Below, piece by piece: positions 2 through 40,188 of a stretch of 40,594 nucleotides of DNA (its first letter is position 1; each line of letters opens with the position of its first letter). Both the position numbers and the translations under genes were made by a program. Source of the DNA: Ilumatobacteraceae bacterium (lineage in GTDB: Bacteria; Actinomycetota; Acidimicrobiia; Acidimicrobiales; Ilumatobacteraceae). The stretch is taken from NCBI GenBank assembly GCA_017856815.1, contig JAFMEI010000003.1:1-40594 (forward strand), written 5' to 3'. A model generated the notes under the pieces. It was not told the DNA's origin. It saw only the letters and a program-made list of their open reading frames with translations, and ran no database searches.

Positions 2-727
2 GGACGCGCACACGCGCAGTACTCCTCCCTGATGCACGAAGCAGCTCATCGACTCTTGTTTTCCAATAAGCGTGTCAATGACCGAGTTGGGCGATGGCTA
101 CTTGGGTATCCGGTCTTCATCTCAACCGATGCATACCGCCGCGCGCATATGGCACATCACCGTGAAGAGTTTGGTGCTGAAGAACCGGATATCCCGCTGT
201 ACGCGGGATATCCGATTTCGCGTGAAAGTTTTCGTCGCAAAGTGATTCGCGATTTGACTGGACAAACAGGTTGGACCATGTTGCGAGGTCAACTGCGTGC
301 ACTGCGTTCGCCTGATGTACGTGCGCGTCGCACCATGCAAAAGATGATCGGTGTACAAATAATCCTGTTCGCTGCATCAATTGCAATCGGTGCACCACTT
401 GCCTATCTGCTTCTTTGGGTTCTGCCGTGGTTCACAATCTGGCGGCTGATAAATCGTCTGCGAGCAATTGCCGAACACGGTGGGCTCCGCGCGGACCCTG
501 ACCGGCGCAACACCACACACTCCATAAAGCAGCATTGGTTGGCTCGTTTTTACATGGTTCCGTACAACATCGGATTCCACATTGCCCACCACGTGGATGC
601 TGGAATCCCATATCGTTCGCTGCCGCGATACCACCGCGCTATGTGCGCAACAGGATTCGTGACCGGAGCCTACGAATACCCGTCGTACACGGCCTTCTGG
701 CGCGCTGCGAGGGCGGGAAAGGCTTGA
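2..727 (+). CDS. Fatty acid desaturase family protein, 5'-truncated by window edge
   Basis: The frame is open upstream of the listed ATG (GRAHAQYSSLMHEAAH...). His-box-like motifs HEAAH, HMAHH and HIAHH; hydrophobic segment in the middle. Confidence 0.8.
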   Translation, partial: GRAHAQYSSLMHEAAHRLLFSNKRVNDRVGRWLLGYPVFISTDAYRRAHMAHHREEFGAEEPDIPLYAGYPISRESFRRKVIRDLTGQTGWTMLRGQLRALRSPDVRARRTMQKMIGVQIILFAASIAIGAPLAYLLLWVLPWFTIWRLINRLRAIAEHGGLRADPDRRNTTHSIKQHWLARFYMVPYNIGFHIAHHVDAGIPYRSLPRYHRAMCATGFVTGAYEYPSYTAFWRAARAGKA

Positions 728-18257: not shown

Positions 18258-19072
18258 CACTCACACGACGGGAAGCCTCTGATCTTTTGGCAACCCACGG
18301 GCTTGCACCATCACGGGCGTTGGGGCAGAACTTTGTTGTTGATGCCAATACCGTGCGGCGGATTGCTTCGCTGGCGGAGATTGATTCACATGATCGCGTG
18401 ATTGAGATCGGTGCTGGACTCGGTTCGCTAACCAGAGCCCTGCTTGAAACAGGAGCCCAGGTACTTGCAATTGAGGTCGATCGGGGCTTAATACCAATTC
18501 TTCGTGAACTTGAAGCCGACAATCCTGGGCAACTACGTGTGATTGAAGCCGACGCAATGAAGATTGGCTGGAGTGATGTTCTCGGTGAGCACACCGACTG
18601 GAAGCTCATTGCCAACTTGCCATACAACGTTGCCACGCCACTCGTTGCCGATCTCCTAGACGGAGTTCCTCAAATCAAATCGATGCTTGTGATGGTGCAA
18701 CATGAAGTCGGTGAGCGCATGGTTGCAGCGCCACGAACAGATGCATTTGGTGCGCTCTCAGTGAAAATCTCCTATTGGGCACAGGCACGAATCGTTGGAA
18801 CAGTCTCGCCTCAGGTGTTTCTTCCACGGCCCAAGGTGAACTCAGCACTCGTGAAGATTGATCGCCGCACGAGCCCTGCGGTTTCCACAGATCCACAACG
18901 CATGTTCACGTTGGTTCGAACCGCATTTGGGCAACGCCGCAAAATGTTGCGTCGATCACTCGCGGGCGTGGTCTCAGAAGAGCAATTCTTGCAAGCCGGC
19001 GTGGCTTCCGATGCCCGCCCTGAAGAACTCGGTGTGGAGGATTGGGGGCGGCTATGTCAAGCGTTGAGTTGA
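18254..19072 (+). CDS. rsmA: 16S rRNA dimethyladenosine transferase RsmA/KsgA
   Basis: LGQNFVVDANTVRRI, VIEIGAGLGSLTRALLETG, LIANLPYNVATPLV; GTGA overlap with the upstream gene. Confidence 0.96.
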   Translation: MTLTRREASDLLATHGLAPSRALGQNFVVDANTVRRIASLAEIDSHDRVIEIGAGLGSLTRALLETGAQVLAIEVDRGLIPILRELEADNPGQLRVIEADAMKIGWSDVLGEHTDWKLIANLPYNVATPLVADLLDGVPQIKSMLVMVQHEVGERMVAAPRTDAFGALSVKISYWAQARIVGTVSPQVFLPRPKVNSALVKIDRRTSPAVSTDPQRMFTLVRTAFGQRRKMLRRSLAGVVSEEQFLQAGVASDARPEELGVEDWGRLCQALS

Positions 19073-19791
19073 TCGCTCCAGCAAAACTCACACTCTCTCT
19101 GCGAATCACTGGCGTGCGTTCTGATGGCTACCACTTGATCGATGCCGAGATGGTCTCAGTTGCGCTGTCTGACACGGTGAGAATTACAGAATCATCCAAC
19201 ACCTCATTGCAGATCTCGGGCCCATTTGCCGAAGGTGTACCAAACGATTCATCAAACATCGCACTGCGAGCTCTCGCACTTGCCAATCGAACTGCTGCAG
19301 TGGAGATCGTAAAGAACATTCCCCACGGTGGTGGGCTCGGAGGTGGATCGACTGATGCAGCGACCGTGCTGCGGTGGGCGGGCTACACCGATCTTGATTC
19401 AGCTTCGCGCATCGGGGCCGATGTTCCGTTTTGCATGGTCGGTGGTCGGGCACGTGTACGTGGAATTGGCGAGATCGTCGAACCCTTACCTGCGAATTCA
19501 CAATCACTGCCTCTGACACTCATCGTTCCACCGCTACAGGTGTCAACACCGGTTGTATACAAAACCTGGGATGATCTCGGCGGCCCGGCCAGCGACGGCG
19601 TCAATGACCTTGAGCCTGCTGCGTGCGCCGCGTACCCAGACCTCGGTAGATGGCGCAGCCGAATAAAAGCACTTGGAATCGAGCCGATCTTGGCCGGCAG
19701 TGGTGCAACTTGGTTTGTGCATGGGCACATCAATGACATCGCAAAAGCGCTGCCTGATGCACGGGTGTACTTCACCGATACCCTCGCCTAG
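19054..19791 (+). CDS. ispE: 4-diphosphocytidyl-2-C-methyl-D-erythritol kinase IspE
   Basis: APAKLTLSLRITGVRSDGYHLIDAEMV, NIPHGGGLGGGSTDAATVLRW, GADVPFCMVGGRARVRGIGE, LAGSGATWFV. Confidence 0.94.
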   Translation: MSSVELIAPAKLTLSLRITGVRSDGYHLIDAEMVSVALSDTVRITESSNTSLQISGPFAEGVPNDSSNIALRALALANRTAAVEIVKNIPHGGGLGGGSTDAATVLRWAGYTDLDSASRIGADVPFCMVGGRARVRGIGEIVEPLPANSQSLPLTLIVPPLQVSTPVVYKTWDDLGGPASDGVNDLEPAACAAYPDLGRWRSRIKALGIEPILAGSGATWFVHGHINDIAKALPDARVYFTDTLA

Positions 19792-19990: not shown

Positions 19991-20064
19991 TCCGGGGTCG
20001 TCCAATGGCAGGACATCTGGTTTTGGTCCAGAGAATAGGGGTTCGAGTCCTCTCCCCGGAACCA
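19991..20064 (+). tRNA. tRNA-Gln (anticodon TTG), CCA encoded
   Basis: Cloverleaf: acceptor TCCGGGG/CCCCGGA, D-arm GTCC..GGAC, anticodon stem TCTGG-TTTTGGT-CCAGA, T-arm AGGGG-TTCGAGT-CCTCT, discriminator A, then CCA. Confidence 0.95.
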
Positions 20065-20096: not shown

Positions 20097-21125
20097 ATGA
20101 CAGTTTCTGCGATCGTGCTCGCCGCTGGCGGCGGCACACGCATGAGATCAACACGACCCAAACCTCTGCACTTGATTTGTGGCCGTCCCATGGTGATGCA
20201 TGTCATTCATGCCCTTGAGAACGTAAAGCCTGATCGCACCGTTGTCGTGGTGGGCCATGGTGGTGACCGTGTTTCAGCAAAAGTGAGCGAGAACGTTCCT
20301 GACTGGGCCCATGTGAACTTCGTTGAGCAGGCGCAACAAAACGGAACGGGCCATGCAGCCCTCATCGGTTTGACTGCCCTCCCCGGTGACGAGTTGGACG
20401 ACACTTCCACCGTGATTGTTCTTCCTGGTGACACTCCCCTGCTCCGCACCGAAACCATTGAGGCACTGGTCAACGCCCACGAATCGAGTGGAAATGCCGC
20501 CACTGTTCTTACTGCCGTAGTTGAGTCACCTACTGGCTACGGACGCATCGTGCGCGCCAGAGATGGTCGGGTTATGAAAATCGTTGAACAACGAGATGCC
20601 GTGACCGAAGAGTTGGCAATCCACGAGATCAACACCGGAATTTTTGCGTTCCAGCGCAACCTCCTCGGCCCAGCCCTCAGACGTGTTTCAAATAAAAACT
20701 CACAAGACGAGTACTACCTGACCGACACTCTCGAAATCCTCTCTGGAATGGGGCACCGCGTAGGCAGTGTTGAGGCGGACGAAGCCGAAACGGCTGGCGT
20801 GAATGACCGGTGGCAGCTCGCAGTCGCTGAACGCGAGCTACGTAGGCGCACCAACAAGTTCTGGCTCCTAAATGGGGTCACCATGTTTGATCCGGATCAA
20901 ACCTTTATCGATGTGACCGTGGAAATCGGCCAGGATGTGACCCTCTTGCCGGGGACTCTGCTCCAAGGCCGTACCCGCGTCGGCGATGCATGCGAAATCG
21001 GTCCAAACACCAGGCTCATCGACACCACAGTCGAGCGAGGCGCACAGGTTCAGTATTCAGTTTGTGAGAACTGCACCGTGGATGCGGACACAATCGTGGG
21101 TCCTTTCGCCCACCTACACTCGTAG
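20097..21125 (+). CDS. glmU: GlmU-like UDP-GlcNAc pyrophosphorylase with truncated left-handed beta-helix; no acetyltransferase catalytic region
   Basis: VSAIVLAAGGGTRMRSTRPKPLHLICGRPMV, QQNGTGHAAL, YGRIV, EINTGIFAF, GVNDRWQLAVAE. ORF ends ...VDADTIVGPFAHLHS* where full-length GlmU continues (IGPFARLRPG...); prs starts 4 bp later. Confidence 0.9.
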   Translation: MTVSAIVLAAGGGTRMRSTRPKPLHLICGRPMVMHVIHALENVKPDRTVVVVGHGGDRVSAKVSENVPDWAHVNFVEQAQQNGTGHAALIGLTALPGDELDDTSTVIVLPGDTPLLRTETIEALVNAHESSGNAATVLTAVVESPTGYGRIVRARDGRVMKIVEQRDAVTEELAIHEINTGIFAFQRNLLGPALRRVSNKNSQDEYYLTDTLEILSGMGHRVGSVEADEAETAGVNDRWQLAVAERELRRRTNKFWLLNGVTMFDPDQTFIDVTVEIGQDVTLLPGTLLQGRTRVGDACEIGPNTRLIDTTVERGAQVQYSVCENCTVDADTIVGPFAHLHS

Positions 21126-21129
21126 AGCA

Positions 21130-22167
21130 ATGGGCTCTGCGCAAAACACTTCCAGCGACGGTAACGGCAACACGATTGACAAGGTGACGACTAAACGTCT
21201 CGCCCTCTATTCGGGTCGTACTCACCCCGAACTCGCAGCTGAAGTTGCACAGCACCTTGGTGTGAAACTCGGCGATCCCAACATCATCGAGTTTGCTAAC
21301 GGCGAAATTCGCCCGCGGTTTAACGAGAGCATTCGTGGTGCTGACGTGTTCATTATGCAGACCCACTTCGGCGTCGATGGTCAATCAATCAACGACTCGA
21401 TCATGGAGCAGCTAATCATGATTGACACTGCTGCGCGCGCATCGGCAAAACGAATCACTGCTGTGTGCCCGTTCTACGGCTACGCCCGCCAAGACCGTAA
21501 AGCCGAAGGTCGCGAACCCATCACGGCAAAACTGCTTGCAGATATGTTCCGCGCAGCGGGCTCTAAGCGCATGATTTCAATTGATCTTCACAGCGGGCAG
21601 ATCCAAGGATTCTTTGATGGTCCAGTGGATCACTTAACTGCACTTCCAGTTCTCGAGCACTATGTGCGCGCCAACGCACCAAAAGACATCGTGATCGTTT
21701 CACCTGATGCTGGTCGCGTGAAGGTTGCGGAACGCTTCGCTCAGCACTTGTCCGACATGAATGCTGACGTTGCGTTCATCAACAAGCGCCGACCAAAAGG
21801 AACAACCAACGTTGCGGTCGCAAAAGAGGTGATTGGAGAAGTTGAGGGTCGCGTGTGCATCCTCACCGACGACATGATCGACACCGGTGGCACCATCGTG
21901 TCCGCCGCTGAGTTGCTCCTCGCCCGCGGAGCAACTGAAGTCTGGGCTATGGCTACCCACGGGGTGCTCTCCGGCCCAGCCATTGAGCGCCTCGAAAACG
22001 GCCCGATTAGCCGAGTGGTGCTCACAAATACCCTGCCCCTGCCTGTGGAGAAGCGGATCCCCAAGATTCAGGTCTTGTCGGTAGCGCCGATCCTCGCCGA
22101 CGCCCTCGCAGCCGTATTCGACGAGACCTCGGTGAGCGAATTGTTCGGCGGGGAAAACCAGTCCTAA
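21130..22167 (+). CDS. prs: Ribose-phosphate pyrophosphokinase
   Basis: KRLALYSGRTHPELAAEVAQHLG, FANGEIRPRFNESIRGADVFIMQ, CPFYGYARQDRK, IVSPDAGRVKVAERF, LTDDMIDTGGTI. The start could instead be GTG 21184. Confidence 0.95.
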   Translation: MGSAQNTSSDGNGNTIDKVTTKRLALYSGRTHPELAAEVAQHLGVKLGDPNIIEFANGEIRPRFNESIRGADVFIMQTHFGVDGQSINDSIMEQLIMIDTAARASAKRITAVCPFYGYARQDRKAEGREPITAKLLADMFRAAGSKRMISIDLHSGQIQGFFDGPVDHLTALPVLEHYVRANAPKDIVIVSPDAGRVKVAERFAQHLSDMNADVAFINKRRPKGTTNVAVAKEVIGEVEGRVCILTDDMIDTGGTIVSAAELLLARGATEVWAMATHGVLSGPAIERLENGPISRVVLTNTLPLPVEKRIPKIQVLSVAPILADALAAVFDETSVSELFGGENQS

Positions 22168-31065: not shown

Positions 31066-33363
31066 ATGGGTGGAAGCATTCTCGGAAATCGTGTCGTCCG
31101 CAAGGAAGATCCAAAGTTTCTGACCACAGGCGGCAAGTACGTCGACGACTTATTTGATGAACCCCTACTCGCTGGCGCGTTACACGTCACATACGTGCGA
31201 TCAACCGTTGCCCACGGACAGATCATCTCCATTGACACTTCTACTGCCAAAGATATGGATGGCGTTGTCGCCGTATTCACTGCGGAGTCCTTGGGCCTCG
31301 AACTCATGCCTGCGGGACTCAACAAATCCGCCAAGCGCGCATTCTTGGCGCGCGACAAAGTTCGCTATGTAGGCGAACCGCTAGCAGCAATAGTTGCCAC
31401 ATCGCGTACTGCTGGTGAGGATGCAGCCGAAACAGTTGTTGTTGACTACAACGTGTTGCCAGCAGTAGTTGATGTTCGTGAAGCCGCAGAGAGCACAGTG
31501 CACCTGTTCGAGGAAGTTGGCAGCAACATCGTGTTCGATTCAATGAACCTTGGTGCACCCGATAATTCAGGGCCAGAGTTCTTTGATGGCTGTGAGGTCG
31601 TGGTGCGAGAGACCATCGTCAACCAACGCGTGGCGCCGTGCCCTATGGAAGTTCGCGGTTCAGCTGTTGCGTGGGTTGATGGTCGTTTGCACCAATGGTT
31701 GTCAACACAGCATGCGCAGGGAGCACATTCGTCTCTGTGTCGCACTTTTGGTTACGAACCCGCGAACGTACGCGTTATCGCTCCCGATGTAGGTGGTGGA
31801 TTCGGCGCCAAGATTGGGCTTTACGGCGAAGAACTGCTGCTCAGTGTTATGTCACAACAGCTGGGTCGCCCACTCATCTGGCGTGAATCACGAAGCGAAA
31901 GCATGGTTGCACTCGGCCATGGTCGAGCCCAAGTGCAAGAGATTGCAATCGGTGGTTCACGCGATGGTCGTGTTCACGCCTATCAATTGAAAGTGCTGCA
32001 GGACTGTGGTGGCTGGGTGGACTCTGCGGCATTTCTTGCCCCATTTATGACACGCCCAATGTCACAGGGTGTGTATGACATTGACCGCATTGAGTGTCGC
32101 ACGTTGTCGATTGTCACCAATACAACACCGGTTGTCCCCTACCGCGGTGCTGGTCGCCCAGAGGCAACGGCTGCAATTGAGCGCGCGATGGATCTCTTCG
32201 CCGCCGAGATTGGCATGGATCCAGTTGATGTCCGAAGCAAGAATCTGATCCAGCCATTCAATGAGCCGTACCAAACCAAGATGGGACAAACCTACGATGT
32301 CGGCAATTACATCGAATCCCTGAACCGTGTAACCGTCGCTGCCAAATATTCTGAACTGCGCGCCGAACAAGCGAAGCGCAGGGCTGCTGGCGACACTGTT
32401 CAGCTCGGAATCGGTGTGAGTGTTTACGTGGAAATCACTGGTGGTGGTGGCACCGGCGATACCGCCAAAATCGAAGTGCTGGAAAATGGCCGAGCCAAGG
32501 TCTACACAGGCACATCGCCACACGGCCAAGGCCATGACACCGCTTGGTCAATGCTGGCTTCTGATCAAACGGGAATCCCGATGGATCGAATTGAAGTTAT
32601 TCATGGTGATACCGATCTAGTGCCAAAAGGTGGTGGCACTTTTGGTTCGCGTTCGCTGCAACAAGGTGGTGCTGCTGTGCATGTAGCCGCTGTGGAACTT
32701 GTTGACATCGCCCGTGGGCTCGCAGCCACTCTGCTTGAAGCCAACGAAGACGACATCGTGTTGGATAAAGAAAACGGCGCATTCCACGTAGCGGGCTCTC
32801 CAAGTGTGAACAAGACCTGGGCTGATCTCGCGGTTGCGAAAAAATCAGAGGGTGGTTTGGTGCACGCAATTGACTTCCGCGTTGACGGAGCCACATTTCC
32901 ATTTGGTGCGCACGTAGCCGTAGTCGAAGTCGACACCGAAACCGGCAAGGTGCGACACATTGCCCACACCACCTGTGATGACGCAGGAACCGTATTGAAT
33001 CCCCTGCTACGTGACGGCCAGATCCATGGCGGAGTGGCGCAGGGTTCGGCCCAAGCACTCTTAGAGGAAGTGCTCTATGACCCAGATGGCAACCCAACAA
33101 CTTCAAATCTTGCCGACTACGCAATGATCTCGGCCGCTGAAGTGCCAAGTGTGACCATCGTGATGATGGAAACTCCAACATTTATGAATCCGCTCGGCGC
33201 CAAAGGCATTGGTGAATCGGGTTCAATCGGAGCAACACCCGCAGTGCAATCCGCGGTGTGCGATGCATTGTTGCATCTTGGAGTGCGGCACGTAGATATG
33301 CCTGCCACCCCAGAACGTGTCTGGCGAGCTATTCACACCGCAAAGTCAGGAGTTGGGCAATGA
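31066..33363 (+). CDS. Xanthine dehydrogenase/CODH-family molybdopterin-binding large subunit (form II CoxL-like)
   Basis: GNRVVRKEDPKFLTTGGKYVDDL, VAPDVGGGFGAKIGLYGEE-like motif (VIAPDVGGGFGAKIGL), VVPYRGAGRPEATAAIERAMD, C-terminal LGAKGIGESGSIGATPAVQSAV. Confidence 0.92.
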   Translation: MGGSILGNRVVRKEDPKFLTTGGKYVDDLFDEPLLAGALHVTYVRSTVAHGQIISIDTSTAKDMDGVVAVFTAESLGLELMPAGLNKSAKRAFLARDKVRYVGEPLAAIVATSRTAGEDAAETVVVDYNVLPAVVDVREAAESTVHLFEEVGSNIVFDSMNLGAPDNSGPEFFDGCEVVVRETIVNQRVAPCPMEVRGSAVAWVDGRLHQWLSTQHAQGAHSSLCRTFGYEPANVRVIAPDVGGGFGAKIGLYGEELLLSVMSQQLGRPLIWRESRSESMVALGHGRAQVQEIAIGGSRDGRVHAYQLKVLQDCGGWVDSAAFLAPFMTRPMSQGVYDIDRIECRTLSIVTNTTPVVPYRGAGRPEATAAIERAMDLFAAEIGMDPVDVRSKNLIQPFNEPYQTKMGQTYDVGNYIESLNRVTVAAKYSELRAEQAKRRAAGDTVQLGIGVSVYVEITGGGGTGDTAKIEVLENGRAKVYTGTSPHGQGHDTAWSMLASDQTGIPMDRIEVIHGDTDLVPKGGGTFGSRSLQQGGAAVHVAAVELVDIARGLAATLLEANEDDIVLDKENGAFHVAGSPSVNKTWADLAVAKKSEGGLVHAIDFRVDGATFPFGAHVAVVEVDTETGKVRHIAHTTCDDAGTVLNPLLRDGQIHGGVAQGSAQALLEEVLYDPDGNPTTSNLADYAMISAAEVPSVTIVMMETPTFMNPLGAKGIGESGSIGATPAVQSAVCDALLHLGVRHVDMPATPERVWRAIHTAKSGVGQ

Positions 33364-33830
33364 GCCAAATGATCAAAGTTGCAATCACCGTGAATGGTCA
33401 ACACACAACCGCCATGGTTGAGCCGCGTACTCTTCTGGTGCAGTACCTTCGCGACAATCTCAATCTCACTGCGACGAATGTTGGCTGCGACACATCAAGT
33501 TGCGGTGCGTGCACTGTTCATCTAAATGGCGAAGCGGTAAAGAGTTGCACCATTCTCGCGGTGCAGGCCGATGGCGAAAACGTCACAACGGTAGAAGGGC
33601 TCGCTAATGGCAATGAGATGCACCCAATGCAGCAAGCCTTCATGGCGAATCATGGTCTGCAGTGTGGCTACTGCACCCCTGGAATGGTGATGGCTGCAAT
33701 AAGTCTTGTAAAAGACATTCCAAACCCCACCGAAGAAGATGTGCGGATAGGGCTTGAAGGCAACTTGTGTCGATGCACCGGATATCACAACATCGTGCAA
33801 TCCGTCTTGGCCTACGCGGAAGGTAAGTGA
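33360..33830 (+). CDS. (2Fe-2S)-binding small subunit, CoxS-like
   Basis: NVGCDTSSCGACTVHLNGEAVKSC and LQCGYCTPGMVMAA...NLCRCTGYHNIV; ATGA overlap with the large subunit stop. Confidence 0.95.
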   Translation: MSQMIKVAITVNGQHTTAMVEPRTLLVQYLRDNLNLTATNVGCDTSSCGACTVHLNGEAVKSCTILAVQADGENVTTVEGLANGNEMHPMQQAFMANHGLQCGYCTPGMVMAAISLVKDIPNPTEEDVRIGLEGNLCRCTGYHNIVQSVLAYAEGK

Positions 33831-34660
33831 TCGCGATGTATCCAGCAGCTTTTGACTACAAGCGACCCGAGTCCGCAGCTGAGGCCATCAGCCTTGTAAA
33901 CGAATTTGGTGATGATGCGAAGTTTCTCGCAGGCGGTCACAGCTTGTTACCACTTATGAAACTTCGTCTAGCCCAACCTACGGTCCTCATTGACATCGGT
34001 CGCCTAGCCGATCTGTCGTACATCCGTGATGCTGGTGACCACATTGCAATCGGGGCTTTGACACGTCACAAAGATGTCGAAACATCAGCTTTGCTGCGGC
34101 AGCATGTGCCATTGCTTGCAGATGCTGCAGCACATGTCGGCGACCGCCAAGTGCGTCACCGTGGAACGATCGGTGGATCAATCGCTCACGCTGATTCTGC
34201 AAGCGACTTGCCGGCAACAATTCTCGCTCTTGGCGCAAAGCTGATTGCGGAAGGCATCGGTGGCAGGCGTGAAATTCCTGCTGTGGATTTTTTCAAAGGT
34301 TTCTTGGAGTCAGCGTTATTGCCAGACGAGCTACTAGTTGAAATTCAAGTGCCAAAGATGTCCAACGCTGGGTGGAGCTTTCTCAAGTTCAACCGCCGCG
34401 CACAGGACTGGGCAATTGTCGGAGTTGCGGCATGGCGTGACGCAGGAAATTGCGGTGTTGCACTCGTGAACATGGGGTCCACCCCCATCCTTGCCACGAG
34501 TGTCGTGCGGGCAATCGCCGATGGGGCCTCGGTCACCGATGCCGCCGCATTGGCTTGTGCGGAGGCAGAACCCCAGTCGGACAACAACGCCACTGCCGAA
34601 TACCGGACACACCTCGCACAGGTGTTGGTTAAGCGCGCTTTAGAAACTTGCTCACGCTGA
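33827..34660 (+). CDS. FAD-binding medium subunit, CoxM-like
   Basis: AFDYKRPESAAEAISLVNEFGDDAKFLAGGHSLLPLMKLRLAQP and RHRGTIGGSIAHADSASDLPATIL. Confidence 0.95.
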   Translation: MIAMYPAAFDYKRPESAAEAISLVNEFGDDAKFLAGGHSLLPLMKLRLAQPTVLIDIGRLADLSYIRDAGDHIAIGALTRHKDVETSALLRQHVPLLADAAAHVGDRQVRHRGTIGGSIAHADSASDLPATILALGAKLIAEGIGGRREIPAVDFFKGFLESALLPDELLVEIQVPKMSNAGWSFLKFNRRAQDWAIVGVAAWRDAGNCGVALVNMGSTPILATSVVRAIADGASVTDAAALACAEAEPQSDNNATAEYRTHLAQVLVKRALETCSR

Positions 34661-34951
34661 AAATTGCACCGCAGCACGCTCAGCAATGATGGCGCGGAAG
34701 ACTTCAGCACGCACTCGCTCGTGAACTGGATGCGTGTCGTACAACCGCCAATCATCTTCTGAGTCGAATTGCGCCACAATTCCGTAGTCCCAATTACGAC
34801 CCGTGGCCATCTGAAGATCGGGACCAAATGAGTACTCCCTGATCTTGGGTAATGCCGCACGCAACTCTGTTAGCGCATCAGCGATGCGCTGAAGATCAGA
34901 TTCTGCGAGCTCACGATTCCATTTGAAGCAAACAACATGAGTGAACGTCAC
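34652..34951 (-). CDS. Dabb (stress-responsive A/B barrel) domain protein
   Basis: MTFTHVVCFKWNRELAESDLQRIADALTELRAALPKIREYSFGPDLQMATGRNWDYGIVAQFDSEDDWRLYDTHPVHERV. Confidence 0.88.
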   Translation of the reverse strand: MTFTHVVCFKWNRELAESDLQRIADALTELRAALPKIREYSFGPDLQMATGRNWDYGIVAQFDSEDDWRLYDTHPVHERVRAEVFRAIIAERAAVQFSA

Positions 34952-35688
34952 AGCAATCCTCCATACACACCACCATCAACAGGTATGTGTGCACCGGTGA
35001 TGAATTTGGCTTGTTCTGAACACACAAAAGCAACCACTGCCCCAAAGTCATCAGGATCGCCCAGTTTCCCAACGGGAATTCCTGCGGCTGGATCAGCAGC
35101 CCCATAAAGCTGTTTCATGCGATCTGTTGCGTGATTCCCAGGCTGCACACTGTTCACCGTAATTCCATAAGGCGCGACTTCACGAGCGAGAGTTTTCAGA
35201 TACGCAGTAAGCCCCGATCGAGCCGTGTTTGAAAGAATCAAGCTCGGTATCGGCTGGCGCACAGCAATCGACGTAATCGCCACGATCCGGCCCCACTGCT
35301 GTTCTTTGAATCGCGGCAGTGCTTCTTTGCACATTGCAATCATTGCGATCAGGTTCGCTTCCAGTGCAGCTGAATAATCCTCGGTGGCGATGCTCGCATC
35401 ATTTCCCGGCTTAGGGCCACCACCATTTGTTACCAAAATGTCGATCCCGCCGAGAGCAGAAATTGCTTTATCCATAAAGCGCGTGGCACCCGAAGAGGTT
35501 GAAATATCCTCAACCACACCAATTGCATTGTTACCAAGCAGTTGCACCGCTGTGTTCACACGGTCCGCATCGCGACCACAAATTGCAACAGATGTACCGG
35601 CTGCCAATAAATTTCGCGCTGTAGCAAAACCCAAGCCTGCTGAAGCGGCAGCAACGACGGCTCGCTTTCCATTTAGCCCTAGATCCAT
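34948..35688 (-). CDS. SDR family oxidoreductase
   Basis: GKRAVVAAASAGLGFATARNLLAAG, LVTNGGGPKPG, Ser/Tyr-region variant AITSIAVRQPIPSLILSNTARSGLTAYLKTLA, PVDGGVYGG. Confidence 0.9.
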   Translation of the reverse strand: MDLGLNGKRAVVAAASAGLGFATARNLLAAGTSVAICGRDADRVNTAVQLLGNNAIGVVEDISTSSGATRFMDKAISALGGIDILVTNGGGPKPGNDASIATEDYSAALEANLIAMIAMCKEALPRFKEQQWGRIVAITSIAVRQPIPSLILSNTARSGLTAYLKTLAREVAPYGITVNSVQPGNHATDRMKQLYGAADPAAGIPVGKLGDPDDFGAVVAFVCSEQAKFITGAHIPVDGGVYGGLL

Positions 35689-35787
35689 GCTCGCAAGATA
35701 ATGCCAAATGGAATAGAACGACCACTCCGATCGTTACACCAGGTACCACCGATCATGTCGGTGTGTTACCCCCTAGGAGATACCCCC

Positions 35788-36345
35788 ATGAAGAAGACAC
35801 TTGCCGCCCTTGCGGTAGCGTCGGTTTTCGCTCTTGCCGCATGCGGCGATGACGAGAACTCAGCAACAACCACCACTGAGGCAACCGAAACCACTGAAAC
35901 AACTGCGATGACCGAAGAGCCCGGCACCATCGTTGAAGTTGCACAAGGCAACGATGATTTTTCAACCTTGGTTGCAGCAATAGTCGCCGCTGGACTCGGT
36001 GATGCGTTGTCAGGCGAAGGCCCGTTCACCGTGTTCGCTCCAACCAACGCCGCCTTTGAGGCACTGCCCGAAGGTCTGCTTGAGAAGCTTCTGCTTCCAG
36101 AGAACAAAGATGTCCTCACAGCAATTCTCACTTACCACGTTGTGAGTGGAGAGGTCATGGCTGCGGATGTGACAGCTGGTGATGTTGCAACACTCGAAGG
36201 TTCAACCATCGCCATCACAACCGACGACGGAGTGAAGATCAATGACGCAACTGTTACTGCCACAGACGTCGAGGCCTCCAATGGTGTGATTCACGTGATC
36301 GACCAGGTCATCGTGCCACCGACAGTAGATTTGTCGGCCCTCTAA
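35788..36345 (+). CDS. Fasciclin-domain lipoprotein
   Basis: Lipobox FALAACGDD; Thr/Glu-rich linker; fasciclin FSTLVAAIVAAGLGDALSGEGPFTVFAPTNAAFEALPEG...LTYHVVSGEVMAADV...GVIHVIDQVIVPP. AGGAGA upstream of ATG 35788. Confidence 0.92.
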   Translation: MKKTLAALAVASVFALAACGDDENSATTTTEATETTETTAMTEEPGTIVEVAQGNDDFSTLVAAIVAAGLGDALSGEGPFTVFAPTNAAFEALPEGLLEKLLLPENKDVLTAILTYHVVSGEVMAADVTAGDVATLEGSTIAITTDDGVKINDATVTATDVEASNGVIHVIDQVIVPPTVDLSAL

Positions 36346-36370
36346 TCAGAGCCACCTCTGTTTGACACTG

Positions 36371-36400
36371 GGACCGGAGCGGAAACGCTCCGGTCCTTTT
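36371..36400 (+). terminator. Intrinsic terminator downstream of fasciclin gene
   Basis: GGACCGGAGCG-GAAA-CGCTCCGGTCC-TTTT: 11-bp perfect stem, GNRA-type tetraloop, T-tract. Confidence 0.92.
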
Positions 36401-36449
36401 GTTTACCCAACTTCGAAGCCATAGCGACCGTGCAAGTACGCTCGTATCA

Positions 36450-37355
36450 ATGTCTCAAGCACCATCCTCTGTTGGTCAGGTACGTGATGCCCTTCAAACC
36501 AACGATTACATTCCCGATGAAGGCTTAGCCACGGCTGTTTTCTTGGCCATCACCCTTGGTCGACCCCTGCTCCTTGAAGGCGAAGCTGGTGTAGGCAAAA
36601 CCGAAGTTGCCAAAGTGATATCGCGGTGGCTGGGTGCTGAACTGATTCGTCTGCAGTGCTACGAGGGAATTGACGCATCACAGGCTGTGTACGACTGGGA
36701 CTACTCGCGTCAATTACTCCACCTCCGAAGCTCTGAAGCCTCTGGCGAGGCACAGTCAATCGGCACCGGTGCTCTTGAGGGTCAATTATTCGATGAGAGA
36801 TTTCTTCTAAAGCGCGCTCTTCTTCGAGCGATCGAGAACGATGGTCACGACAAAGTTTTGCTAATTGATGAAATTGACCGTGCCGATGATGAATTTGAGG
36901 CCTACCTTCTCGAGGTTTTGTCTGACTACCAGGTGACTGTTCCCGAACTCGGCACCTTTAAGGCAGAGAAGCCACCGATTGTGATCCTCACATCAAATCG
37001 CACACGGGATGTTCATGATGCGCTCAAGCGACGTTGTCTGTACCACTGGGTCGAGCATCCAAGTTTTGAACGTGAAGTAGCAATCGTGAAGCTGCGCGTA
37101 CCCAACGCGGCAGACAAACTCGTTCGGCAAGTAGCAGCAGCAGTTGAAATCATGCGGGGTCTCCATTTGTACAAGTCCCCTGGTGTGGCGGAGAGTATTG
37201 ACTGGACCACGGCGCTCGCACGTCTTGGTGCAACTGAACTTTCCGAGGAACTCATCCGTAACACCCTCGGAACTGTTCTCAAATATCGCGAGGACCAGCA
37301 ACGCGTGGAGGATTCCGGGGTCGACGCAATCCTTGGCCAAGCTATCGCGCGGTGA
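36450..37355 (+). CDS. MoxR-family AAA+ ATPase (CoxD-like)
   Basis: GRPLLLEGEAGVGKTEVAKVISRWLGAELIRLQCYEGID, KVLLIDEIDRADDEFEAYLLEVLSDYQVTVPELG, ILTSNRTRDVHDALKRRCLYHWVEHP. ATG at 36450. Confidence 0.94.
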   Translation: MSQAPSSVGQVRDALQTNDYIPDEGLATAVFLAITLGRPLLLEGEAGVGKTEVAKVISRWLGAELIRLQCYEGIDASQAVYDWDYSRQLLHLRSSEASGEAQSIGTGALEGQLFDERFLLKRALLRAIENDGHDKVLLIDEIDRADDEFEAYLLEVLSDYQVTVPELGTFKAEKPPIVILTSNRTRDVHDALKRRCLYHWVEHPSFEREVAIVKLRVPNAADKLVRQVAAAVEIMRGLHLYKSPGVAESIDWTTALARLGATELSEELIRNTLGTVLKYREDQQRVEDSGVDAILGQAIAR

Positions 37356-37359
37356 CTCA

Positions 37360-38508
37360 GTGAGTGCTGTGGTGCAATCCGACGTCGAAAGACTCGCTGT
37401 TGCGTTCGCTTATGCACTTCGTGACGCTGGCGTTTCGGTGCCGCTCGACTCTGTGATCACCTTTGTAAGCGCCATTGAGGCCACTGGAATCGACCAACAC
37501 GAGAGCGTCTACTGGAGCGGTCGCGCAACACTGATCAGAAGACCAGAGGACATCGATTCCTATAACTCTGTTTTCCAGGCATTTTGGTATCAGGACCAAG
37601 GCTGGATGCCACTCACATTTGCGCCAGTTGAGCAAGAGCACACCCTTGCGATTGATGACGAATCTGGAGGGCTTGATTCGGATTCCGGTGAAGGTTCCGA
37701 TCAAGCCGATACCACTCTTCGATTTTCAACAACTGAAATTTTGCGAGAGAAAGACTTTGCCGAGTGCACAGACGAAGAGCTATTCGAAGCGCAGAAGCTG
37801 ATGTCTCGTCTACGCATTTCGGGCCCACCTCGGGCATCTCTGCGCTTTGCGACCGATCGGCACGGGAAGCGCCCCGATTTACGACGCACAGTTCGCGGGT
37901 CGTTGCGTCACGGGGGCGAGCCGATCAAACGAGAGTGGAAGGACGCGGGCGAAAGACAGCGTCGCCTCGTTCTATTGCTCGATATTTCTGGCTCAATGGA
38001 GCCTTACGCTCGGGCACTTCTCCGCTTTGTCCATGCAGCGGTAGCGGGGCGCCAAAAGGTGGAAGCTTTCACCATCGGCACCAGGCTCACCCGAATTACA
38101 AAAGACCTGAACGAACGCGATCCCGATAAGGCGCTTGCCGCCGCTGCTGCGCGAGTGGCGGATTGGAGTGGTGGCACTCGACTCGGTTCCTGCCTGCGGG
38201 ACTTCAACGATCAATGGGGTGTTCGCGGTGTTGCTCGCGGGGCGATCGTTGTTGTGTTGTCAGACGGCTGGGATCGTGGTGAGCCCGAACTCCTTGGCGA
38301 GCAAATGGAGCGTCTACATCGAGTCACATCAAGGATCGTGTGGGTAAACCCGTTGAAATTCACACCGGGTTATGCACCTCTTGCCAAAGGCATGGCGGCA
38401 GCACTTCCCCACATTGACAACTTTGTCGAGGGGCACTCGCTTGCATCAATGGAAGAACTTGCGCGTGTGATCTCACTGCCGCTCAACATAATGGCTGTGC
38501 GAGACTGA
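37360..38508 (+). CDS. VWA domain-containing CoxE-like protein
   Basis: RRLVLLLDISGSMEPYARALLRFVHAAVAG, FTIGTRLTRITKDL, SGGTRLGSCLRDFN, VVVLSDGWDRGEPELL. GTG 37360 is preferred; the ORF-track start 37144 lies inside moxR. Confidence 0.9.
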   Translation: MSAVVQSDVERLAVAFAYALRDAGVSVPLDSVITFVSAIEATGIDQHESVYWSGRATLIRRPEDIDSYNSVFQAFWYQDQGWMPLTFAPVEQEHTLAIDDESGGLDSDSGEGSDQADTTLRFSTTEILREKDFAECTDEELFEAQKLMSRLRISGPPRASLRFATDRHGKRPDLRRTVRGSLRHGGEPIKREWKDAGERQRRLVLLLDISGSMEPYARALLRFVHAAVAGRQKVEAFTIGTRLTRITKDLNERDPDKALAAAAARVADWSGGTRLGSCLRDFNDQWGVRGVARGAIVVVLSDGWDRGEPELLGEQMERLHRVTSRIVWVNPLKFTPGYAPLAKGMAAALPHIDNFVEGHSLASMEELARVISLPLNIMAVRD

Positions 38509-38512
38509 CACC

Positions 38513-39628
38513 GTGAAGGAAATACTTGATGACATCACTCGTTGGCGCAACGCGGGCAAGAAAATTGCTGTAGCGCGTGTCATCGATGTCGAAGGTTCGG
38601 GTCCCCGCGATGCGGGTGCTGCAATGGCAGTGACCCAAGACGGCGAGGTTGCTGGTTCTGTTAGCGGTGGCTGCGTCGAGGGCGCTGTAGTAACTGAGGC
38701 ACTTGAAGTTCTGAGCAGTGGCACCCCTGGTCGTCGTGTCACTTTCGGATACTCCGATGACGAAGCATTTGCTGTTGGTCTTACATGCGGCGGCACTGTG
38801 CACCTATTCATCCAACCGCTCGATGAAATTGCATTTGATGCCTTGGCTGCCCCACTGCAGAACAACAATCCAGTGGTCATTGCCACCGTTTGCGGTGGAC
38901 CCAACATTGGTTCAAGCATCGTTGCCACACCTGAATCACTCGTTGGCACATTGGGCAACAACGAGCTTGACCGCGTCGCAAGTCGCGATGCGCGCGGCGA
39001 TCTCGATCTTGGGCGCACAACCACGCGCCACTACGGCCCCGAGGGGCAAGTAACCCCAAGTGATCTTGAAGACACCAACACAGTCACGCTGTTCATCGAG
39101 TCATTCGCGCCAGCACCAGAAATGTGGATCTTTGGAGCCGTGGACTTCACGGCTGCACTCACACGTGTGGCAAAAGTTCTTGGCTACAGAGTTACGGTGT
39201 GCGATGCGCGGGAGATGTTCGCCACCAAAAAGCGCTTTCCAATGGCCGACGATGTGAAGGTCACCTGGCCGGGTGCAGTTTTTGCCGAACACGGGAAGTC
39301 TCTTGGACCCCGTGATGCAGTTTGCATCCTCACTCACGATCCGAAATTTGATGTCCCCGCCATTGAAGGTGCGCTTGCAAGCAAAGTCGGTTATATCGGA
39401 GTTATGGGTAGCAGAAAGACCATCGAAAAACGCCTGCAACGTTTGGCAGACGTTGGCATTACTTCGGCTGAAGATCTTGCCCGCTTAATGCAACCTATTG
39501 GGCTCGACATCGGCTCACGCACTCCTGAAGAAACTGCAATCTCCATCTGTGGGGAAATAATCGCGTGTCGATCGGGTCGCACCGCAACTTCCCTGCGCAA
39601 TTCAAGCGGTCCAATCCACGCCAACTAA
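38513..39628 (+). CDS. XdhC/CoxI family protein
   Basis: ARVIDVEGSGPRDAGAAMAVTQDGEVAGSVSGGCVEGAVVTEALEVL and IFGAVDFTAALTRVAKVLGYRVTVCDAREMFATKKRFP...YIGVMGSRKTIEKR. Confidence 0.93.
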   Translation: MKEILDDITRWRNAGKKIAVARVIDVEGSGPRDAGAAMAVTQDGEVAGSVSGGCVEGAVVTEALEVLSSGTPGRRVTFGYSDDEAFAVGLTCGGTVHLFIQPLDEIAFDALAAPLQNNNPVVIATVCGGPNIGSSIVATPESLVGTLGNNELDRVASRDARGDLDLGRTTTRHYGPEGQVTPSDLEDTNTVTLFIESFAPAPEMWIFGAVDFTAALTRVAKVLGYRVTVCDAREMFATKKRFPMADDVKVTWPGAVFAEHGKSLGPRDAVCILTHDPKFDVPAIEGALASKVGYIGVMGSRKTIEKRLQRLADVGITSAEDLARLMQPIGLDIGSRTPEETAISICGEIIACRSGRTATSLRNSSGPIHAN

Positions 39629-40188
39629 TGAGCGTTCAAGCAATAATCCTCGCTGCAGGTGGTGGCAGCCGATTCGCTAGCAACACGCACAAACTCCTAA
39701 GCACAATTAAGGGAAGGTCGATCGTTTCACTTGCGATTCAGTCAGCAGTTGATGCTGGAATCGGAGAGGTCTTGGTAGTAACTGGTGCAGCAAATCTTGA
39801 CTCTGTACTCAGAGAGTTTCCCGATGTGGTCCAAGTTCATAATCACAACTGGGAAGCAGGGCAGGCTGTTTCAATTCAATGTGCGATTCGCAGCGTCAGC
39901 TCCGAGGTGACACGGGTAGTTGTGGGACTCGGCGATCAGCCAGGCATCGAGCCAGCCGCCTGGCGGGCAATCGCAGAAGATCCGAGTGAAATTACCGTTG
40001 CGACCTATCAAGGTATACGCGCTAATCCGGTTGGGCTTAACAGAAGTATGTGGGACTTGTTGCCCATAGATGGTGACGAAGGTGCACGAAAGGTGATGAA
40101 AATGCACCCTGAACTGGTCCACGAACTACCCTGCATTGGGTCATCTGAAGACATAGATACCGTGGAGGACTTGCGTCGATGGAACTGA
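39628..40188 (+). CDS. MobA-like nucleotidyltransferase (molybdenum cofactor cytidylyltransferase-like)
   Basis: VQAIILAAGGGSRFASNTHKLLSTIKGRSIVSLAIQSAVDAG, VVGLGDQPGIEPAAWRAIAE, GDEGARKVM. ATG 39628 overlaps the xdhC stop (TAATG). Confidence 0.9.
   Translation: MSVQAIILAAGGGSRFASNTHKLLSTIKGRSIVSLAIQSAVDAGIGEVLVVTGAANLDSVLREFPDVVQVHNHNWEAGQAVSIQCAIRSVSSEVTRVVVGLGDQPGIEPAAWRAIAEDPSEITVATYQGIRANPVGLNRSMWDLLPIDGDEGARKVMKMHPELVHELPCIGSSEDIDTVEDLRRWN

Follow-up and report, generated by a model that had tools for sequence, protein, structure and literature searches.

A short GlmU ending before the acetyltransferase catalytic region is shared across the order Acidimicrobiales

How is glucosamine phosphate acetylated in a bacterium whose GlmU ends before its acetyltransferase region? 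The question is raised by the glmU gene in a stretch of 40,594 nt (contig JAFMEI010000003.1 of assembly GCA_017856815.1, from an Ilumatobacteraceae bacterium; Acidimicrobiales, Acidimicrobiia), which is called the window here. The acetyltransferase activity of GlmU is regarded as essential in bacteria and as a drug target. In work on GlmR, it was stated that GlmU would stay essential owing to this activity (PMC10128056). A sequence-only reading of the window had claimed an intact uridyltransferase, a clean deletion of the acetyltransferase region, and the need for a separate acetylation step.

The features of the locus are summarized in Table 1. The five uridyltransferase motifs named in that reading (GGGTRM, PKPLH, NGTGHA, EINTG, and GVNDR) were all present, and the match of the protein to GlmU structures was confined to residues 4-340. 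The C-terminus is ...VDADTIVGPFAHLHS* (final residues VGPFAHLHS), and the protein stops before the E. coli-type catalytic region (Lys351, His363, Tyr366, Asn377, Ser405, and Arg440). The TIGR01173 profile aligned over model positions 2-330 of 452 with 356 bits, below its curated cut-off of 366.85. As prs begins 4 bases past the glmU stop, no space is left for a displaced C-terminus. Thus, the intact uridyltransferase, the cleanly absent acetyltransferase region, and the spacing to prs were all confirmed.

Table 1 Features of the glmU locus in the window.
Feature	Position	Strand	Remarks
ispE-like gene	19042..19791	+	Upstream of glmU, part of the conserved locus
tRNA-Gln(TTG)	19991..20064	+	Directly upstream of glmU
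glmU, predicted monofunctional	20097..21125	+	ATG start, 342 aa
glmU uridyltransferase domain	residues ~1-230
glmU beta-helix stub	residues ~275-342		Without the acetyltransferase catalytic region
prs (ribose-phosphate diphosphokinase)	21130..22167	+	ATG 4 bases past the glmU stop

In the predicted structure of the window GlmU (mean pLDDT 76.6), the nucleotidyltransferase domain is accompanied by only a few coils of the beta-helix. Its best structural matches were GlmU structures, among them an E. coli protein shortened to about residue 331 and crystallised with UDP-GlcNAc (PDB 1fwy). The truncated E. coli proteins (1fwy and 1fxj) likewise comprise the uridyltransferase and a short beta-helix stub, but they were engineered, whereas the short GlmU of this order is natural. 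Bifunctional GlmU (TIGR01173; M. tuberculosis, E. coli) has the uridyltransferase domain, its motifs, the fold, and the beginning of the beta-helix in common with the short protein. The catalytic beta-helix coils and the C-terminal arm are absent from the latter, and the known active site for GlcN-1-P acetylation is necessarily missing with them. Judging from the sequence, the window gene probably encodes a monofunctional GlcNAc-1-phosphate uridyltransferase.

The gene lies in a conserved locus with the order ksgA-ispE-(tRNA-Gln)-glmU-prs-rplY-pth-mfd, and prs adjoins glmU in most of the order. The IspE-like protein of the window (249 aa) is shorter than typical IspE and scored below curated cut-offs (120.5 bits against 138.7 for TIGR00154). 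Elsewhere in the window, positions 31066-40188 hold a cluster resembling an aerobic CO dehydrogenase operon, with FAD-binding and CO-dehydrogenase flavoprotein domains, an AAA ATPase, XdhC/CoxI, and a MobA-like protein.

We compared GlmU across the order, taken in the GTDB sense with Acidimicrobiaceae, Ilumatobacter, and Microthrix as named members, mostly using draft metagenome-assembled genomes (MAGs). When read to their own stop codons, 56 of 57 sequences from 56 genomes, including that of the window, were 342-378 aa long and the remaining one was 251 aa; all 57 ended ahead of the acetyltransferase catalytic region. GlmU proteins of other orders in the class, read in the same way, were 453-503 aa (30 of 30). 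TIGR01173 matched GlmU in 22 of 25 order genomes and gave no match in three. All 22 matches ended at or before model position 362 of 452 and fell under the cut-off. In other orders of the class, the cut-off was exceeded in 70 of 75 genomes, with matches mostly extending to about position 450, and the five genomes below it had contig-edge fragments or no GlmU. The same division was seen in 80 named GlmU records. Those from Acidimicrobiaceae, Ilumatobacter, Candidatus Microthrix parvicella RN1, and related MAGs were 356-377 aa (23 records), and those from Streptomyces, Corynebacterium, Bacillus, and others were 451-504 aa (57 records). Thus, the truncation is real and wider than a single genome.

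The uridyltransferase and substrate-binding motifs were kept across the order, and the key motifs were invariant in 14 order sequences. Most members have about 20 residues more than the window GlmU, with the tail '...GSxVxxGxxTG[AP]FYT', so that the genus of the window has shed a little more on top of an older truncation. In one protein (L412, G034:C27:34600-36200), GlmU is only 251 aa long; the beta-helix stub is absent and the uridyltransferase domain stands alone. A maximum-likelihood tree built from 101 uridyltransferase regions needed a single change to separate the 63 short from the 38 full-length sequences (support 70/92; 71% of bootstrap trees). The loss of the acetyltransferase half thus likely occurred once, in the ancestor of the order, although the moderate tree support does not amount to proof. 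Of the clean deletion claimed for the window, the absence itself was upheld, but a local event was not; the truncation is ancient and order-wide, and it probably arose once.

An assembly error or a recent pseudogene limited to the genome of the window was refuted by this comparison, and we give it practically no weight. The source is a draft genome of 171 contigs, which would leave room for such an error, but the stop is identical in a congener (G001) whose GlmU shows 98.5-99% identity to that of the window. The truncation is also found in the single-contig genomes G072, G012, and G038. Of the changes between the two congeneric genes, 51 are synonymous and 7 are non-synonymous (dN/dS 0.04), indicating that the short glmU is under strong purifying selection. 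As the truncation is an old order-wide trait, an assembly artefact is excluded, and the relatives within the order, among which a full-length glmU at this locus would have pointed to one, were also short.

We next considered the upstream steps. GlmM of the window's genome scored above its curated cut-off and is of the bacterial type, GlmS adjoins it, and both enzymes were found across the order. Because glmS and glmM are retained, GlcN-1-P is probably still made. The GlmS-like protein of the window's genome (L080, G000:C12:6885-10283) is 1133 aa long, roughly double the normal length. It has an insertion of some 120 residues in its N-terminal part and some 320 extra residues at its C-terminus, neither of which matches a Pfam family. 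This long form is widespread in the order and in neighbouring families, and other relatives have the usual size of about 610 aa.

Genome G072, a single contig of 2,158,157 bp with a GlmU of about 364 aa, is by inference Acidimicrobium ferrooxidans ICP. This strain is free-living, uses CO2 as its carbon source and ferrous iron as its energy source, and has a murein containing meso-DAP (PMC3035218). An autotroph that lives on CO2 and has murein needs to carry out its own glucosamine acetylation. The separate acetylation step proposed for the window's organism is thus upheld on pathway logic, on which the existence of a replacement acetyltransferase is likewise inferred.

Known systems offer partial parallels. 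The GlmU of Rickettsia lacks the whole C-terminal domain, and import of GlcNAc-1-P from the host has been proposed (PMC5615194). The same domain is missing in both cases, but Rickettsia is an obligate parasite, whereas this order consists of free-living bacteria that have retained GlmS and GlmM, one of them an autotroph. In the eukaryotic GFA1-GNA1-AGM1-UAP1 route, acetylation and uridylylation reside on separate proteins, as proposed here for the order. However, a UDPGP/UAP1-type enzyme (PF01704) was found in only one of 41 relatives, no protein emerged as a GNA1 orthologue, and GlmM is of the bacterial type; a UAP1-type pyrophosphorylase was thus rejected as a sign of the eukaryotic route. 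GlmR/YvcK converts GlcNAc-1-P and UTP into UDP-GlcNAc (PMC10128056). As proposed for the short GlmU, it is a monofunctional bacterial enzyme for this step, but it is unrelated to GlmU.

The explanation that we hold to be quite probable is a monofunctional GlmU produced by a single ancestral loss, with GlmS and GlmM kept and acetylation carried out by an unlinked, non-GlmU enzyme. A single event in the ancestor of the order would have removed the acetyltransferase half of GlmU and left a short beta-helix stub. The pathway would still begin with GlmS and GlmM, and N-acetylation of glucosamine phosphate would have shifted to an unlinked enzyme unrelated to GlmU. This enzyme may act on GlcN-6-P, giving a eukaryote-like order of steps, or on GlcN-1-P, and by default a GNAT fold would be the likeliest.

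Other routes to UDP-GlcNAc would dispense with such an enzyme or place it later. Salvage, in which GlcNAc or GlcNAc-phosphate is imported and the cell never acetylates glucosamine, has its direct precedent in the proposal for Rickettsia, whose GlmU is without the acetyltransferase domain (PMC5615194), and some members of the order have small genomes. We regard it as highly improbable, as glmS and glmM would be unneeded under salvage but are retained across the order, and the members of the order are free-living. As A. ferrooxidans lives on CO2 and has murein (PMC3035218), salvage cannot be the general answer. Alternatively, the short GlmU might uridylate GlcN-1-P to UDP-GlcN, which a later enzyme would acetylate. 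This would also account for the lost GlcN-1-P acetyltransferase, and presumably one extra acetyltransferase would suffice. However, the uridyltransferase domain of GlmU prefers the acetylated sugar, and the GlcNAc-1-P-binding motifs of bifunctional GlmU are kept across the order, so that acetylation at the nucleotide level appears unlikely.

If the replacement belonged to the left-handed beta-helix (LbH) family, a stand-alone LbH acetyltransferase, split from GlmU or recruited, would acetylate GlcN-1-P. A profile of outgroup C-domains detected no orphan GlmU C-domain in 23 order genomes; the best match reached 43 bits, whereas two controls scored 204 and 216 bits, and the matches at or below 43 bits resembled generic hexapeptide-repeat proteins. 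The stand-alone LbH relative of the GlmU C-terminus suggested by the sequence-only reading was therefore not found in these genomes. The only LbH proteins in the window's genome were a 215-aa acyltransferase (L072), a gamma-carbonic-anhydrase-like protein, and GlmU. L072 speaks for a recruited enzyme in that the window's genome has it, as do 10 of the 14 order genomes tested, but G072, G049, G054, and G125 gave no match to it, and outgroups with full-length GlmU have it too. L072 was rejected because it is not universal in the order, and an LbH replacement of either origin seems very unlikely.

Among GNAT proteins, we searched with PF00583, which represents part of the GNAT subfamilies, and found nine in the window's genome. 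Beyond RimI and MshD, the only PF00583 protein common to this genome, A. ferrooxidans (G072), and a distant third lineage (G106) was a PAT-like GNAT (L065, G000:C23:4975-5475). L065 was present in 24 of 25 order genomes, and the single absence may be an assembly gap, as the locus is often near a contig end. However, L065 also occurs in 17 of about 20 neighbouring-family genomes with full-length GlmU, and this co-occurrence makes it a weak candidate. It matches phosphinothricin/arsinothricin N-acetyltransferases, and the residues conserved within the order are shared with neighbouring families, with no group-specific changes. That L065 is the replacement enzyme is thus doubtful.

Another GNAT (L067) lies in a conserved thyX-GNAT-enoyl-CoA hydratase-DUF349 locus in the ten order genomes examined, including A. 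ferrooxidans. The GNAT of the thyX locus (L383-L392; G000:C154 and relatives) is fast-evolving and carries the motif PGxRxxKxxFExxG. L067 matched proteins in 8 of 14 order genomes and in none of seven outgroups (E <= 1e-7), counts in which absence is an unsafe guide given its fast evolution. It was set aside because it is fast-evolving, has no GNA1-type conserved pair, and showed no counterpart in G106. RimJ-like L070 was rejected, as G072 gave no match to it and outgroups have it too. A GNAT with a GNA1-like IED motif was found in two distant members (L322 in G106:C5 and L330 in G072:C1; 47-49% identical) but not in the window's genome. Its weak PDB matches include 3fb3, which we take to be T. 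brucei GNA1.

An acetyltransferase gene near glmS and glmM had also been suggested. Beside glmU and in the glmM-glmS cluster, the only one was RimI, which outgroups with full-length GlmU have in the same place. The extended GlmS was rejected as the carrier of the missing activity, since it is also encoded alongside full-length GlmU, and order members G057, G072, G106, G110, G114, G118, and G146 do not have it. None of the GNAT, LbH, or GlmS candidates is strong enough to be named as the replacement enzyme.

Some members have no GlmU at all. GlmU matches were absent in nine order genomes (G002, G005, G009, G028, G030, G031, G045, G110, and G125), all more than 90% complete except G045. In G125 (98% complete; L209, G125:C3:19000-31000), ispE is followed by prs and glmU is cleanly absent between them. 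No UAP1-type enzyme was found in those GlmU-less genomes that were tested, and no obvious extra NTP-transferase was seen in the GlmU-less genomes. GlmR/YvcK would be a plausible stand-in for GlmU in these members. Their existence fits a pathway in which acetylation is independent of GlmU, and it also means that the pathway is less settled there than a single scheme implies.

In the open-access full-text literature, which does not cover subscription papers, we found nothing relevant on GlmU from this order or its class, and the only published parallel found is the GlmU of Rickettsia. Annotation by similarity to GlmU may label the short proteins as bifunctional. A large free-living clade, including an autotroph with murein, does without the GlmU acetyltransferase. 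On balance, we favor the view that this free-living order uses a split UDP-GlcNAc route with a novel glucosamine-phosphate N-acetyltransferase other than GlmU, which may act ahead of the mutase as it does in eukaryotes, and that some lineages dropped GlmU as well. This leaves a gap in a core pathway, where an essential enzyme must exist that is so far nameless, and the cultured members A. ferrooxidans and Ca. Microthrix parvicella make the gap testable.
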